From Mumia sp. Pv4-285 (lineage in GTDB: Bacteria; Actinomycetota; Actinomycetes; Propionibacteriales; Nocardioidaceae): a stretch of 64,000 nt of DNA. Below the pieces are notes generated by a model, which saw nothing but the letters and a program-made list of their open reading frames with translations, did no database searches and had not been told where the DNA came from. Each line of letters opens with the position of its first letter. The first letter of the stretch is position 1. The translations under genes and the position numbers were made by a program. The stretch is taken from the NCBI RefSeq assembly GCF_041320275.1, contig NZ_CP162023.1:3720001-3784000 (forward strand), in the 5' to 3' direction. Below, piece by piece: positions 27,419 through 64,000 of this stretch.

Positions 27419-28086
27419 CCGATGGTGACCTTTCTTCCGTCGATGGTCCAACCGCGGCGGACCATGGATCCGACAGCGTCGACCAGCTGGCGACGCTCTG
27501 CTTCCTTGATGCGTTCGAGGAGGGTCTCCTCGGTGTCGTCGTCGAGGACGGGGACGGCGACCTGGGCGATGATCGGCCCGGTGTCGACGCCGTCGTCGAC
27601 GAAGAAGAGGGTGGCGCCGGCGAGCTTGACGCCGTACGCGAGGGCGTCGCGCGGCCCGTGGATCCCGACGAAGCTGGGCAGCAGCGAGTTGTGGGTGTTG
27701 ACGTAGCGGTCGGCGAACGCCGCGAGGAACTCCGCCCCGACGAGCTTGAGGAAGCCGGCGGAGACCACCAGGTCGGGCTCGTACGCCGCCACGCTCGCCG
27801 TCAGCGCAGCGTCCCAGTCCGCCCGCTGGTCGTAGTCGCGGACGCGGTGCACGAACGTCGCGGCACCGGCGCGCTCGCCGCGCGCGAGGCCTTCGATGCC
27901 GTCGCGGTCCGCGCCGACGGCTACCACCTCGGCCCCGTACGCCGGATCGGCGCAGGCGTCGACGAGGGCCTGCAGGTTGCTGCCGGACCCGGAGACGAGG
28001 ACGACGAGCCGTGCCGGGCGGTCAGTCGTCGGGGGTGGAGTCCGGCGGGTCAGCGGCCGCTGCGGTTGCGTCGTCGTCTGCTCCAC
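27415..28086 (-). CDS. purN: Phosphoribosylglycinamide formyltransferase
   Basis: Transfers a formyl group from 10-formyl-THF to GAR in purine synthesis. Motifs seen: [31 protein letters not shown], the catalytic [14 protein letters not shown] (the usual NIHPSLLPxFxGxH changed to THNSLLPSF) and [20 protein letters not shown]. The start is uncertain. GTG 28086 (or 28095) gives about 30 residues before the Rossmann strand and overlaps the DUF6350 gene by 60 bases, and there is no clear ribosome site. The stop overlaps the purH start. Confidence 0.92.
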
Positions 28087-29281
28087 GACGACCACGATAG
28101 TGCGCTGCCGCTCCCCCGACCGCCCCGCCCACGGCGAGGACGACGATCGCGAGCGGTGCGGCGAGGGCGAGGTCGGGGCCGGAGTGGCCGAGCCTTCCCG
28201 GCCCGACGGAGCCGCCGGAGAGCAGCAGACCCACGGCGAGCACCGATCCCGCGAGCGCGCCTGCCCCTCCACCAGCGGTGAGCGCCGTCCGCAGGTCGCC
28301 CGCGAGGACGGTCGCCGAGCGCCAGGGCGAGACCGCGAGGTAGCCCGCCAGCGCACCCGCCACCAGCGGGAGCGCCGACAGCGCCACCAGCGACGCCGGG
28401 CGCGGTCCGGTCGGCGGCAGCGCAGCGAGCACCGGGAGCGCTGGGACGGCGCCGAGGCTGCTCGCGGTCAGGGTGACCGAGGTTCCGGCACCCAGGGCGT
28501 ACCCCGGTCCGAGCAGTGCGGCGACGTTCCAGAGGACGAGGTTGGGCAGGACCACGAGGCACACGACGAGAAGGCCGAGCCCACCGAGGGCGTCCGGCCG
28601 CAGCGCGTCCCACATCGCGCCCGCCGCGTCGAGCCGCACGACGATCCCGCCGAGGACCAGCAGCGCAGCCGTCCCGAGCAGGGTGACCGCTCCGACGCGC
28701 GCGCCCCGGAGCGCCGAGCGCCCCAGCGGCGGGAGGGCGTCGTACTGGCGGCGCGCGAGCCCCGACCCGCGAGCACCGCCGGTGAACCCGAAGATCCCGC
28801 CGACGACGAGACCGGCTGCGGCCGCGCGCCAGATCTCCACGTGGACCGGGCCGAGCGCGGACCACCAGGCGACGACCGCGAGGACGGCGGCGGACACGAG
28901 ACCGGACGCAGCGCCCGCCGAGACCGCCTGGCGCGTCGTGGGTGCGACGCCGAACCCCGAGGCGACCCGTGCCACCGACCCGTGCAGGAGCGCGGCGACC
29001 AGCGCGAGGAGACCGAGCGGGATCGCGTTGAGGACGGCGCCCGACGCCACGACACCGCTCCCATGGGCTGCGAGCCAGCCGATCGCGCCGGCACGCAGCG
29101 CACCTGCGGCCGTGCCGCTGTCGGCCGACATCCAGGCCACGACAGCCAGTCCGCCGCACACCAGGAGGCCGACGGCCGCGGCCAGGACGGCGCCGGCCGC
29201 ACCGGCGTACCATCCGGGCCTGGCGCCGTTGCCGCGGGCGTCGCGGGGGCCTGTCGACGTTGGGGCGAGAGTCTCGGTCAT
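28022..29281 (-). CDS. DUF6350-family polytopic membrane protein
   Basis: Membrane protein of 419 residues with about ten hydrophobic segments, Ala/Gly/Leu-rich, ending in an acidic tail ([18 protein letters not shown]). It matches my recollection of DUF6350 proteins, which in Actinobacteria usually sit just upstream of purN as here; the function is unknown. The start is ATG 29281; GTG 29287 and ATG 29290 are in-frame alternatives nearer to an AGGGA. Confidence 0.78.
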   Translation of the reverse strand: MTETLAPTSTGPRDARGNGARPGWYAGAAGAVLAAAVGLLVCGGLAVVAWMSADSGTAAGALRAGAIGWLAAHGSGVVASGAVLNAIPLGLLALVAALLHGSVARVASGFGVAPTTRQAVSAGAASGLVSAAVLAVVAWWSALGPVHVEIWRAAAAGLVVGGIFGFTGGARGSGLARRQYDALPPLGRSALRGARVGAVTLLGTAALLVLGGIVVRLDAAGAMWDALRPDALGGLGLLVVCLVVLPNLVLWNVAALLGPGYALGAGTSVTLTASSLGAVPALPVLAALPPTGPRPASLVALSALPLVAGALAGYLAVSPWRSATVLAGDLRTALTAGGGAGALAGSVLAVGLLLSGGSVGPGRLGHSGPDLALAAPLAIVVLAVGGAVGGAAAHYRGRRGADDDATAAAADPPDSTPDD

Positions 29282-29398
29282 CGTCACCATCGTCCCTGTA
29301 GCCTGGGTTCCCTGGACGGAGGCACGCCGCAGTGCCCGACCGGGGGGTCGTCCGAGTTTCAGCCAGTCACGCACCCCGGACGTAGGGAGAACCGAGTC

Positions 29399-31264
29399 AT
29401 GCCGAAGGTGGAAGAGTTCGACACCTTCTACGACTCCACCAGCAGGTACGTGACCCACCTCACGTACGCCGAGAGCGGCGACCGCACCGTCACCGAGGAA
29501 GCCGTCGCCGAGGCGTACGAGAAGGCCTGGCAGAGCTGGGCCAAGCAGCGTTCCCGCGACCCGCTGGGATTCGTCCGAGGCGAGGCGTTCCGCCACGCCC
29601 GGCTCTCCCGCGGCACGCGCCCGTGGCGCCGCCGGCACGAGGACGACAGCGACCTCGACCTGATCGAGGCACTCCAGGGCCTCAACAACCGCACCCGTCG
29701 CCTGATCATCCTCCAGACGCTCGGCGAGCTCGACATCTCCGCCGCCGCGCGCGACCTGGCCATGACCGACGCCGAGGCCGTCGCTGAGACGCAGCAGGCC
29801 GTGACCGAGCTGGAGCAAGCCCTCGGTCAGAGCATCGGCCAGGTCGAGAGCCGGCTCCTCGGCCTCTCCGAGATCTCTGAGCGCATCCCGCTCCCGACCC
29901 CGGCACGGATCCGCGGCAAGGCGCGCAGGCGCCGCCGCAGGCACACCGTCGTCGCTGTCGCTGCGGCCACTGCCGCCGTCGTCGGAGCAGGCCTCGCCGT
30001 CGCACCGACCGCCCCGATGAGCCCCGCGCAGGCCCAGGAGCGCAACCGCGTGGGCGAGACCCCGGTCGAGGCGGCGCGCCCCGGCGACGCCGTCACGACG
30101 CGCTCGCTGCTCAATGCGACCGAGATCAGCCGCGTCAGCCCGAACCGCGACTGGACGACGCTCACGACCACTGCGGACGAAGCCGCCCCTGACGAGGACG
30201 AGCTCGCGGCCGCCGCATCGGCCGACGCGGATGCTGCCGCCGGCGAACCCCTGACGGTGTGCGCGGCGCGACGGTTCGCGACCAACAACCCCCGCAAGAC
30301 GTATGTGCGCGACTTCGAGGTGTACGGCCGGCCGGAGCAGGCCGTCCACGTCCTCGAGGTCGCCCGCGACGCCGACGGCGCGAAGGCCGCCTACAAGCGT
30401 CGTCTCCAGTGGTACGCCGACTGCGCCGTCCCCGGCGTACAGATGAGCTCCGAGACGGCGACCATCGCGGGTGCAGCCTCCCCGGTCACCATCCTGCGCC
30501 TGCGCGACCTCTCGTCGCCGGTCCGCACGATCACCATCGGCATGATGCAGACCGGTGTCGTCAACACCATGCTCGTGCACGAGACCGACGGTGCCGCCGG
30601 CCCGTCGACCGCGGCCCTCGGGTCGACCATGGTCGACGGCATGCGGCTCGCGTGCGCATCGTCCGGCGGACCGTGCACGACGACGGCCAAGGTGGTCGCC
30701 GCACCGCTCCCGCGAACCTCGACCGACCCGGGGTTCCTGGCGGCCGTCGACCTTCCTCCGGTCGGCTCGCAGACGTCGCCGTGGGCGGGCACGAAGCCGA
30801 AGGCGCCGAACGACAACCCTGCGGCGACGATGTGCGACCAGGCCAACTTCCTCGCACCGGGCGTGACCAAGGCCCGCGGCCGCATCTACGTGGTGCCCAA
30901 CGACAAGGCGATCCCGAAGCAGTTCGGCATCGGCCAGTCGATCGCGACCTTCCGCAGTCCGCAGCAGGCGCAGGCGTTCGTGCAGCGCCTTCAGAAGCGC
31001 ATCCGCAAGTGCGAGGACCGCAACCAGGCCGCGAACGTCGTCGACGGCAAGCCGGTGCGCGGGTCCGGCTACGCCGGCAGGAGCTGGCGCATGACGTTCG
31101 AGACCGGCCCGAAGTCCACCGTGAGCTACCGGCTCGCGCTCGTATGCCGCGGCGCCACCGTCACCGAGGTGCGGCAGTCGGGCAACAAGCGTGCCGACCT
31201 CACCGCGACCGAGTTCCTGCGCGTCGCCGACCGTTCCGGCCAGCGCCTCGCCTACTGGCGCTGA
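29399..31264 (+). CDS. Membrane-anchored sigma-70-like protein with two extracytoplasmic sensor-like domains
   Basis: Unusual 621-residue protein. Residues 1-75 resemble sigma region 2 of ECF/SigE-type factors (FDTFYDSTSRYVTHL, then EEAVAEAYEKAWQSWAKQ). Residues 86-142 resemble region 4 (ALQGLNNRTRRLIILQ, then DISAAARDLAMTDAEAVAET). A basic stretch (GKARRRRRRH, about 173-182) precedes one membrane span (about 183-205), so the rest faces outside. Two similar domains of about 140 residues follow (from about 285 and 475), each with paired Cys as in PknH-type sensor domains (WYADC...CASSGGPC; IRKC...LVCRGA). The ATG at 29399 follows AGGGAGA. Divergent from DUF6350. It may be a tethered regulator rather than a free sigma factor. 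Confidence 0.72.
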   Translation: MPKVEEFDTFYDSTSRYVTHLTYAESGDRTVTEEAVAEAYEKAWQSWAKQRSRDPLGFVRGEAFRHARLSRGTRPWRRRHEDDSDLDLIEALQGLNNRTRRLIILQTLGELDISAAARDLAMTDAEAVAETQQAVTELEQALGQSIGQVESRLLGLSEISERIPLPTPARIRGKARRRRRRHTVVAVAAATAAVVGAGLAVAPTAPMSPAQAQERNRVGETPVEAARPGDAVTTRSLLNATEISRVSPNRDWTTLTTTADEAAPDEDELAAAASADADAAAGEPLTVCAARRFATNNPRKTYVRDFEVYGRPEQAVHVLEVARDADGAKAAYKRRLQWYADCAVPGVQMSSETATIAGAASPVTILRLRDLSSPVRTITIGMMQTGVVNTMLVHETDGAAGPSTAALGSTMVDGMRLACASSGGPCTTTAKVVAAPLPRTSTDPGFLAAVDLPPVGSQTSPWAGTKPKAPNDNPAATMCDQANFLAPGVTKARGRIYVVPNDKAIPKQFGIGQSIATFRSPQQAQAFVQRLQKRIRKCEDRNQAANVVDGKPVRGSGYAGRSWRMTFETGPKSTVSYRLALVCRGATVTEVRQSGNKRADLTATEFLRVADRSGQRLAYWR

Positions 31265-31280
31265 CCTCCTGGTACGACGA

Positions 31281-31314
31281 GAGGCGCCCCGACCGCGAAC
31301 GGTCGGGGCGCCTC
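31281..31314. terminator. Bidirectional hairpin terminator
   Basis: GAGGCGCCCCGACCG (31281-31295) pairs perfectly with 31300-31314 around loop CGAA, followed by TTCGTA. It ends the sigma-like gene and faces the convergent sucCD operon. Confidence 0.75.
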
Positions 31315-31340
31315 TTCGTACTCAGCCGATCAGGCGAGCG

Positions 31341-31369
31341 CGCTGGCGCTCGCTCCTCAGGACAGCGCC
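31341..31369. repeat. 29-bp direct repeat, distal copy of the sucD 3' end
   Basis: This 29-base stretch is an exact copy of 31382-31410, 41 bases away. It belongs to the palindrome-like GACGCTCGCTGGCGCTCGC class of GC-rich intergenic words often seen in Actinobacteria. Confidence 0.75.
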
Positions 31370-31381
31370 CTTCGAGACGCT

Positions 31382-31410
31382 CGCTGGCGCTCGCTCCTCA
31401 GGACAGCGCC
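31382..31410. repeat. 29-bp direct repeat, proximal copy spanning the sucD stop codon
   Basis: Identical to 31341-31369. Its right part encodes the last four residues and stop of SucD; its left part holds the CGCTGGCGCTCGC core preceded by TTCGAGACG. Confidence 0.75.
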
Positions 31411-32294
31411 TTCAGGATCTCGCGCATGAGCTCGGCGGTCTCGGACGGCGTCTTGCCGACCTTGACCCCGGCGGCCTCGAGGGCCGCCTTCTTCGCCTCG
31501 GCCGTGCCGGACGAGCCGGACACGATCGCGCCGGCGTGGCCCATCGTCTTGCCCTCGGGCGCGGTGAAGCCCGCCACGTAGCCGACGACCGGCTTGGTGA
31601 CGTTCGCCTTGATGTAGGCCGCGGCCCGCTCCTCGGCGTCGCCACCGATCTCGCCGATCATCACGATCGCCTTGGTCTCGGGGTCGTTCTCGAACGCCTC
31701 GAGCGCGTCGATGTGGGTCGTGCCGACGATGGGGTCGCCGCCGATGCCGATGGCGGTCGAGAAGCCGTAGTCCGACAGCTCGTACATCATCTGGTAGGTC
31801 AGCGTGCCGGACTTCGACACGAGACCGATCGGACCCTTGCCCGCGATGGTGTGCGGCGTGATGCCGGCCAGCGACTCCTCCGGCGTGATGATGCCGGGGC
31901 AGTTCGGGCCGATCATCCGGGTCTGCTTGCCCTGCAGGTACGCCCACACCTCGGCGGTGTCCTGGACGGGCACGCCCTCGGTGATGACCACGAGCAGCCC
32001 GATGCCGGCATCGATGGCCTCGACGCAGGCGTCCTTGGTGAAGGCCGGCGGCACGAACACGACCGACACGTCGGCGCCGGTCTCGGCGATCGCCTGCTCG
32101 ACCGTGCCGAAGACGGGCAGCTCGACCTCAGCGCCGTCCTTCGTGTGCGTGACGGTGGTGCCGGCCTTGCGGGCGTTGACACCACCGACGATGTTGGATC
32201 CCGCGTCGAGCATCAGGGCGGTGTGCTTGGCACCCATCCCGCCGGTGATGCCCTGGACGATGATCTTGGAGTCCTTGTTCAGGTAGATCGACAT
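31398..32294 (-). CDS. sucD: Succinyl-CoA synthetase alpha subunit
   Basis: Alpha subunit (298 residues) that binds CoA and carries the phosphohistidine in substrate-level phosphorylation of the TCA cycle. Visible are [20 protein letters not shown] at the N terminus, [14 protein letters not shown], the CoA/phosphate-loop [20 protein letters not shown] and the active-site His loop [18 protein letters not shown] (about residue 246). Starts 14 bases after sucC. The last codons lie inside a 29-bp repeat. Confidence 0.97.
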
Positions 32295-63647: not shown

Positions 63648-64000
63648 ATGACGGACGTCGCGGACGTCGTCGCGACCCTCCACCGTGACCACTGGGGCCG
63701 TGTGGTCGCGGCGACCGTCCGCACCGCGGGCGACCTCGACACCGCTCAGGACTGCGCGCAGCACGCGTTCGAGCGCGCCCTCGCGGCCTGGGACCGTGAC
63801 GGCGTCCCGGCCAGCTCCGTCGGCTGGCTCGTCCGGACGGCCCGCAACCACGCCCTCGACCTGCACCGCCGGGCGGGCTCGTTGCGCGACCGGCTGCCCG
63901 ACCTCGCCCAGCGCGAGGAGACTCGGCACCTCGACGACCCAGCGGCCCGATGGAACGACGACCTGCTGCGGCTCGTCTTCACGTGCTGCCATCCTGCGCT
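63648..64000 (+). CDS. ECF sigma factor, ECF42/SigJ-like (3' end outside window)
   Basis: First 117 residues of an extracytoplasmic-function sigma factor. Region 2 is clear (LHRDHWGRVVAATVRTAGDL, AQDCAQHAFERALAAW, then VGWLVRTARNHALDLHRR). The conserved LLRLVFTCCHPA at the edge is the start of the ECF42-type region 4 segment. Region 4 and the expected C-terminal TPR-like extension lie beyond the window. The ATG at 63648 is 10 bases after the DGPF gene; the pair is a known conserved unit. Confidence 0.9.
   Translation, partial: MTDVADVVATLHRDHWGRVVAATVRTAGDLDTAQDCAQHAFERALAAWDRDGVPASSVGWLVRTARNHALDLHRRAGSLRDRLPDLAQREETRHLDDPAARWNDDLLRLVFTCCHPA

Follow-up and report, generated by a model that had tools for sequence, protein, structure and literature searches.

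A SigE-type sigma-like domain fused to a membrane-spanning sensor in Mumia sp. Pv4-285 and its family: a candidate membrane-bound pseudo-sigma

What role can a sigma-like domain play when it is part of one chain with a membrane span and extracellular domains? The question is raised by an open reading frame of the soil actinobacterium Mumia sp. Pv4-285, located on the forward strand at positions 29399–31264 of the window (the whole 64 000-nucleotide stretch of DNA that was analysed) and translated into 621 amino acids. According to the original prediction, the protein either joins promoter recognition and outside sensing or acts as a decoy or anti-sigma factor. The ATG start codon at 29399 is preceded by GGGAGAA, and the alignment of homologues is compatible with this start position in all six Mumia genomes, each of which, its own included, gave a single match; a genome search found one copy of the gene in its own genome. 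The 621-amino acid protein is real: the start, the span and the cysteine pattern recur among homologues, which rules out a chance or frame artefact. Two other readings of the region were rejected, namely a 1122-amino acid one in the same frame (27896–31264), which extends upstream beyond the true start, and an 852-amino acid frame on the opposite strand (28022–30580), the last part of which contains DUF6350.

The gene is transcribed divergently from DUF6350-purN-purH, as originally described: the neighbouring DUF6350 gene, coding for a multi-span membrane protein (Pfam PF19877, E = 1e-57), lies on the reverse strand at 28025–29281 (without its stop codon), with purN and purH beyond it. On the other side is sucD (31398–32294, reverse strand), and the second sigma gene found downstream in some relatives is absent here. 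Alignment of the six Mumia upstream regions revealed two conserved stretches in the divergent intergenic region (29297–29329), TGTAGCCT and ACGGAGGCACGCCG, of which the first (29297–29304, forward strand) resembles an extended -10 element. A consensus scan of 29200–31450 for promoters and terminators detected none, including no full promoter around TGTAGCCT. Similar stretches, TGTANNNT and GGCACGCCG, were seen 5' of the gene at loci L012, L017 and L023. At six Nocardioides-type loci (L049, L060, L064, L069, L071 and L073) TACCGT was found 9–10 bases 5' of the ATG; these six are without a clear ribosome site and resemble leaderless transcripts. The start of a further sigma-like gene (TIGR02983, E = 3.2e-8), cut by the window edge, was noticed at 63666–64000.

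The ancestry of the N-terminal part (residues 1–142, regions 2 and 4; 29399–29824, forward strand) was assessed on the Mumia protein and on members of its family: removal of seven duplicates and one fragment (L054) from 73 loci left 65 distinct sequences, 48 of which make up alignment A1 and 43 alignment A2. Pfam models Sigma70_r2 and Sigma70_r4_2, proposed originally as a check of the N-terminal residues, gave sub-threshold matches only, so that the support came from another model, TIGR02983 (SigE-fam_strep). It matched residues 4–144 with an E-value of 1.5e-8 for the whole protein and of 7.8e-10 for residues 1–183, i.e. with significant homology across regions 2 and 4, and at scores (34.7 and 38.9 bits, respectively) below the curated cut-off of 141.55 that defines SigE-type membership. 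The same model matched all 48 members scanned out of the 65 at E ≤0.01 (best 1.2e-19). The N-terminal domain aligned with nine further sigma factors encoded in that genome at an hhalign probability of 99.1%. Sigma factors ranked first when a profile of 43 N-terminal domains was searched against the PDB (SigK, E = 1.2e-4; SigD, 4.8e-4; SigL, 7.2e-4). Judged by these alignments, residues 1–142 derive from an ECF sigma factor of SigE type, in agreement with the segment resembling sigma regions 2 and 4 that had been noticed at the outset. Two other models gave weaker signals: NF006623 (PhyR) matched the Mumia protein at E = 1e-3 and 21 of the 48 members, and the NCBIfam 'anti-sigma factor' model NF052375 matched 3 of the 48 (best E = 9.2e-4). 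AlphaFold produced poor models for four Mumia sequences (mean pLDDT 35 and 55), with which a fold search placed SigW/RsiW first (E = 0.92) and PhyR second (E = 1.1), both non-significant.

The sigma-like domain is followed by a cytoplasmic juxtamembrane segment (residues 143–182; 29825–29944) with an arginine block at 172–181, and by a single transmembrane span, predicted at residues 184–202 (29948–30004) with the N-terminus inside by charge; one span at 183–205 had been foreseen. The best hydrophobic window of the Mumia protein starts at 184 and there is no second one. Among 64 homologues (the sequence L052, which contains an unknown residue, the fragment L054 and the seven duplicates being excluded) the best window starts between 180 and 199 with positive charge ahead of it, and a second window is found in one. 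Outside the membrane, a variable, gap-rich linker (residues 206–284; 30014–30250) leads to two domains (residues 285–440 and 441–621; 30251–30718 and 30719–31261, all on the forward strand). Cysteines 288, 342, 419 and 426 in the first domain and 479 and 538 in the second are invariant across 48 sequences; Cys583 is not. Two PknH-like domains had been predicted, and this is half confirmed. The whole protein gives one PknH_C match (PF14032, residues 481–605, E = 1e-7, 32.4 bits versus a gathering score of 27), which falls in the second domain, and PknH_C is found at E = 0.01 in 30 of 48 members; but neither domain has a Pfam match when submitted singly, the first has no family match, and it resembles the second only weakly (hhalign 41%, E = 2.8e-4). 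A PDB sequence search with the second domain gave no match.

The origin of this architecture was sought by comparing the same locus in other families. The usual order in the family is purH-purN-DUF6350, the gene, then sucD-sucC. In two sister families, f2 and f3 (probably Propionibacteriaceae and Kribbella), an orthologue occupies the corresponding position, flanked by purN as well as sucD at 18 of 20 loci, and all 20 fetched loci code for a span and a sensor without a sigma part: no ORF there matched the sigma profiles except for bits of 26–27 residues, parts of the full-length model, at L115 and L127. The cytoplasmic tail of these proteins is either short and basic or long and disordered-looking; at the f2 loci L116–L129 a long disordered-looking tail, with RPRRA-like motifs in several, stands in place of the sigma part. 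The f2/f3 sensors align with the Mumia sensor at 100% probability, and L110, the sole one submitted to Pfam, reaches 24.3 bits with PknH_C, slightly below the cut-off. In another family, f23 (probably Micromonosporaceae), a sigma gene, a sensor gene, a second sigma gene and a second membrane gene stand in a row at five fetched loci (L131–L135), at each of which purN, sucD or both were recognised; sigE1 of L131 and L132 and sigE2 of L135 were seen in the class-wide search only, without ORF picking. Elsewhere, in another order, a 161-amino acid SigE factor overlaps the gene of a 455-amino acid membrane sensor (L130, genome G474), on a 7.4 kb contig with none of the locus markers. The outside part of the Mumia protein aligns with these split sensors (hhalign 98.6%, E = 7e-16; versus sensor2, 35% for f23 and 91.5% for the Nocardioides type), and residues 143–205 align with their tail and span (95.3%, E = 2.3e-8), which makes segment 143–182 the apparent counterpart of the short cytoplasmic tail of a separate sensor gene. 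The PknH_C label is not shared by the split sensors: neither Pfam nor NCBIfam gives a match for sensor1 of L133 or for the sensor of L130.

The sigma parts give a consistent picture. Taken together as one set, sigE2 and further SigE genes align with the sigma half at 100% probability (hhalign), and TIGR02983 scores descend from 149 bits for L130 and 145 for sigE2 through 102 for the split sigE1 and 69 for the Streptomyces-like L143 to 35–39 for Mumia. A tree was built from 46 sigma domains picked by likeness to the profile; in it, the 19 fused domains form one group (support 96/90) with no branching preference for sigE1 or sigE2, inside a larger SigE-type group (100/99) that includes the split-locus sigma genes, excludes the nine other Mumia sigma factors and also takes in L136 and L137, at which none of the locus markers was recognised. 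Across 246 genomes sampled from the class, all 19 genomes of the family had a full-length match, and none outside it was found among the matches listed. Because sigma and sensor are separate neighbours in f23 and the sensor lacks a sigma part at 20 sister-family loci, fusion of a sigma gene with a sensor gene is the plainest reading of these comparisons. A further arrangement was observed at purN-sucD loci of family f22, which appears to be Streptomyces-like: a SigE-like domain with a hydrophobic stretch after it (L143, L146 and L147; L144 and L145 by class-wide search). The stretch passes the span threshold in one of three picked ORFs, a helix-turn-helix ahead of the SigE-like domain is confirmed by Pfam in L143 alone, and no PknH_C sensor was seen at the f22 loci.

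If the domain was once a sigma factor, is it still one? Residues of regions 2.2 and 4.2 of sigma factors contact core and the -35 element. They were counted in 64 fused sequences (L052 excluded) and compared with nine ordinary factors and eight sigE2. The region 2.2 glutamine Q37 is present in 3/64 fused domains, versus 9/9 and 8/8; T126 in 3/64, versus 8/9 and 8/8; the basic recognition-helix residue K/R128 in 1/64, versus 8/9 and 8/8; R130 in 1/64, versus 7/9 and 8/8; and R/K133 in 2/64, versus 6/9 and 8/8. Sigma membership, judged by these contact residues, is not borne out (Q37 and K/R128). The charge of the recognition helix is zero or negative in 58/64 fused domains and in 0/21 of the other sigma genes compared, with a mean of −2.4 (range −5 to +3) versus +4.2 for the ordinary factors, +3.75 for sigE2 and +3.25 for four further SigE genes; six of the 64 are positive, up to +3. 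In short, the fused sigma half is without the usual basic recognition helix and mostly without the region 2.2 glutamine. Loss of Q37 alone is no proof of lost function, since two of the four further SigE genes, L130's among them, also lack it (R130 is likewise kept in 2/4). Some of the loss may predate fusion, as E already stands in place of K128 and the helix charge is +2 in the split sigE1 of f23, known from three near-identical sequences. An acidic residue is still present at position 34 in 30/64 fused domains.

The degenerate domain is nevertheless not drifting freely. R100 (64/64), W47 (64/64) and W44 (60/64) are retained, and K49 (60/64) and R118 (56/64) are nearly fixed in the fused domains but unconserved in ordinary factors. 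For five Mumia pairs, dN/dS over residues 2–142 was 0.08, 0.12, 0.17, 0.23 and 0.49 (with dS probably at saturation for the more distant ones), lower than in both outside domains in all five; the span or the 143–182 segment fell below the sigma half in some single pairs. Mean conservation across the family is 0.60 for region 2, the best conserved segment, and 0.53 for region 4, which barely exceeds the 0.51 of the outside domains. On these substitution patterns, the sigma half is under selection and more constrained than the outside domains.

These observations led us to a reading to which we give a probability of roughly one half. As homology shows, a SigE-type sigma gene was fused with the adjoining membrane-sensor gene, and this took place in the ancestor of the family; the sensor gene's product would be the partner that usually holds the sigma factor in such pairs; the result would be a membrane-bound pseudo-sigma acting through protein contact. 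Sensing of the cell envelope would fall to its cysteine-bearing outside domains; in response, the tethered pseudo-sigma would hold or release a partner, the candidates being an anti-sigma-type tail, its own 143–182 segment and the polymerase. The fused sigma half itself would select no promoters. Signalling by such another route is probable because the sigma part has lost most of its DNA-gripping parts, and the claim that the protein joins promoter recognition to outside sensing does not agree with the Q37, residue 128 and helix charge counts. We infer a pseudo-sigma in preference to a released promoter-binding factor. The latter would be a true membrane-tethered sigma, an outside signal leading through regulated proteolysis to the freeing of residues 1–160, which would bind core and start a regulon. 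Its overall layout is shared with ECF52 and IutY (PMC8999054), and both the conservation of region 2 and the match of the SigE family to all 48 members scanned are in its favour; however, the basic recognition helix and most region 2.2 glutamines are lost and the zinc-finger segment is absent by Pfam, which makes this alternative unlikely.

The spread of the gene and its downstream neighbours bear on two further alternatives. A single-protein search found matches at E ≤1e-5 in 327 of 341 family genomes, not all of which need be orthologues, from 21 of 26 genera (278 of 285 when genomes of good quality are counted). Within genus g17 (G101–G105), three genomes gave E-values from 5.5e-8 to 4e-6 and two had no match; this genus may have lost the gene or altered it heavily. 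An order-wide profile search of 196 genomes matched all 76 of the family, with a full-length single open frame (from model position 1–6 to 602–605) in 74; the two broken cases are G308 (5–440) and G261 (two pieces). Of 28 family loci examined, 20 lie between purN and sucD; purN alone was seen at three, sucD alone at three and neither gene at two. Short pieces account for six of the latter eight, but at L044 and L045 sucD is absent within about 7 kb. With 350–2500 bases of downstream sequence covered, a same-strand sigma gene follows the fused gene in 16 of 65 loci. At five Nocardioides-type loci (L138–L142), chosen for the adjoining sigma gene (that of L139 seen in the class-wide search only), this gene is canonical, and a further membrane-protein gene comes after it.

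The decoy or anti-sigma part of the original prediction fits better than promoter recognition, and separate sigma and sensor genes at the same locus sharpen it. In its strict form, the pseudo-sigma would compete with the canonical SigE encoded downstream for the membrane partner of that factor or for the polymerase. The 16 loci, the membrane-protein gene in the five chosen ones and the NF052375 matches speak for such competition; but 37 of the 65 loci, including five of six in Mumia, have sucD without a sigma gene downstream, and 12 have neither, so that it could be a role common to all only if the partner were encoded elsewhere, and we hold it to be improbable. Least probable is an idle sigma half, left over from the fusion, with span and sensor as the working part in an envelope or division role, as the 20 sigma-less sister-family loci (the 26–27-residue bits apart) would allow, because the sigma half varies less than the two outside domains, has near-fixed residues peculiar to it and is whole in 74 of 76 family genomes.

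For the pseudo-sigma, the neighbourhood offers some hints of the signal. By gene order, the DUF6350 gene occupies the place of perM, a mycobacterial division gene, and from position we guess that PerM is the DUF6350 counterpart, the order in Mycobacterium tuberculosis being sucCD-Rv0953c-Rv0954-perM-purN-purH. Rv0954 is in an operon with perM and binds PknH, LamA and PbpA (PMC8093794); it is comparable by locus, with four predicted spans and a Pro/Gln-rich half, unlike the Mumia protein. By analogy, the DUF6350/perM position and the partners of Rv0954 hint at an envelope or division role and at nothing more specific. A wider version of our reading is tentative and somewhat doubtful: a sigma/sensor locus widely kept in actinobacteria beside a possibly division-linked membrane gene, in which the fused pseudo-sigma would relay an envelope or division signal by protein contact, and which would have been rebuilt along other lines in Streptomyces-like genomes, as a helix-turn-helix with a sigma-like domain and a hydrophobic stretch.

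Fusions of ECF factors to membrane parts have been described before (PMC8999054, PMC5826349, PMC8103513, PMC7406223 and PMC4255298). ECF52 (SCO4117), ECF53 and ECF48 are actinobacterial ECF factors with membrane anti-sigma-like extensions (PMC8999054 and PMC5826349), and the Mumia protein resembles them in being a sigma-span fusion, with a sigma-like domain, a span and a further part in one chain. They have a zinc-finger segment, and ECF52 also a carbohydrate-binding domain; in contrast, the Mumia protein is of SigE type, has a PknH_C-like outside part and has lost hallmark residues. It has no Pfam match to a zinc finger between sigma domain and span, its first cysteine being residue 288, and no such match is among the six Pfam families listed for 48 members. 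In IutY of Pseudomonas putida (ECF243), a sigma factor is fused to its membrane anti-sigma partner and works via proteolysis; release by proteolysis is proposed for ECF52 and shown for IutY (PMC8999054). Unlike the Mumia protein, IutY serves iron signalling, and truncated IutY is active, so its sigma domain works. PknH resembles the Mumia protein in the C-terminal part, which is above the Pfam cut-off (PF14032), but the Mumia protein has no kinase and its cytoplasmic part is sigma-derived. Among the papers listed by the literature searches, two of which were covered by their top 10 of 359 and 8 of 2,476 entries, none dealt with a SigE-type/PknH_C fusion or with this locus in Nocardioidaceae. 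What is new here, within the known kind of membrane-fused ECF proteins, is the lack of a zinc finger, the other sensor and the degenerate sigma half.

The sigma-like domain of PhyR is itself sigma-derived and serves protein binding. A partner switch of PhyR with NepR and EcfG is named in PMC8999054. PhyR is a response regulator, whereas no receiver domain was found in the Mumia protein by Pfam, and its score with the PhyR model (18.9 bits versus a cut-off of 240) places it outside that family. At the purN-sucD locus, a single conserved site, a natural series runs from sigma and sensor genes apart, through the fused protein, to a sensor with no sigma part. How a sigma factor gives up promoter recognition and turns into a signalling module can thus be tested directly, step by step. 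Should the pseudo-sigma indeed act by binding, it would be a membrane-bound case alongside PhyR.
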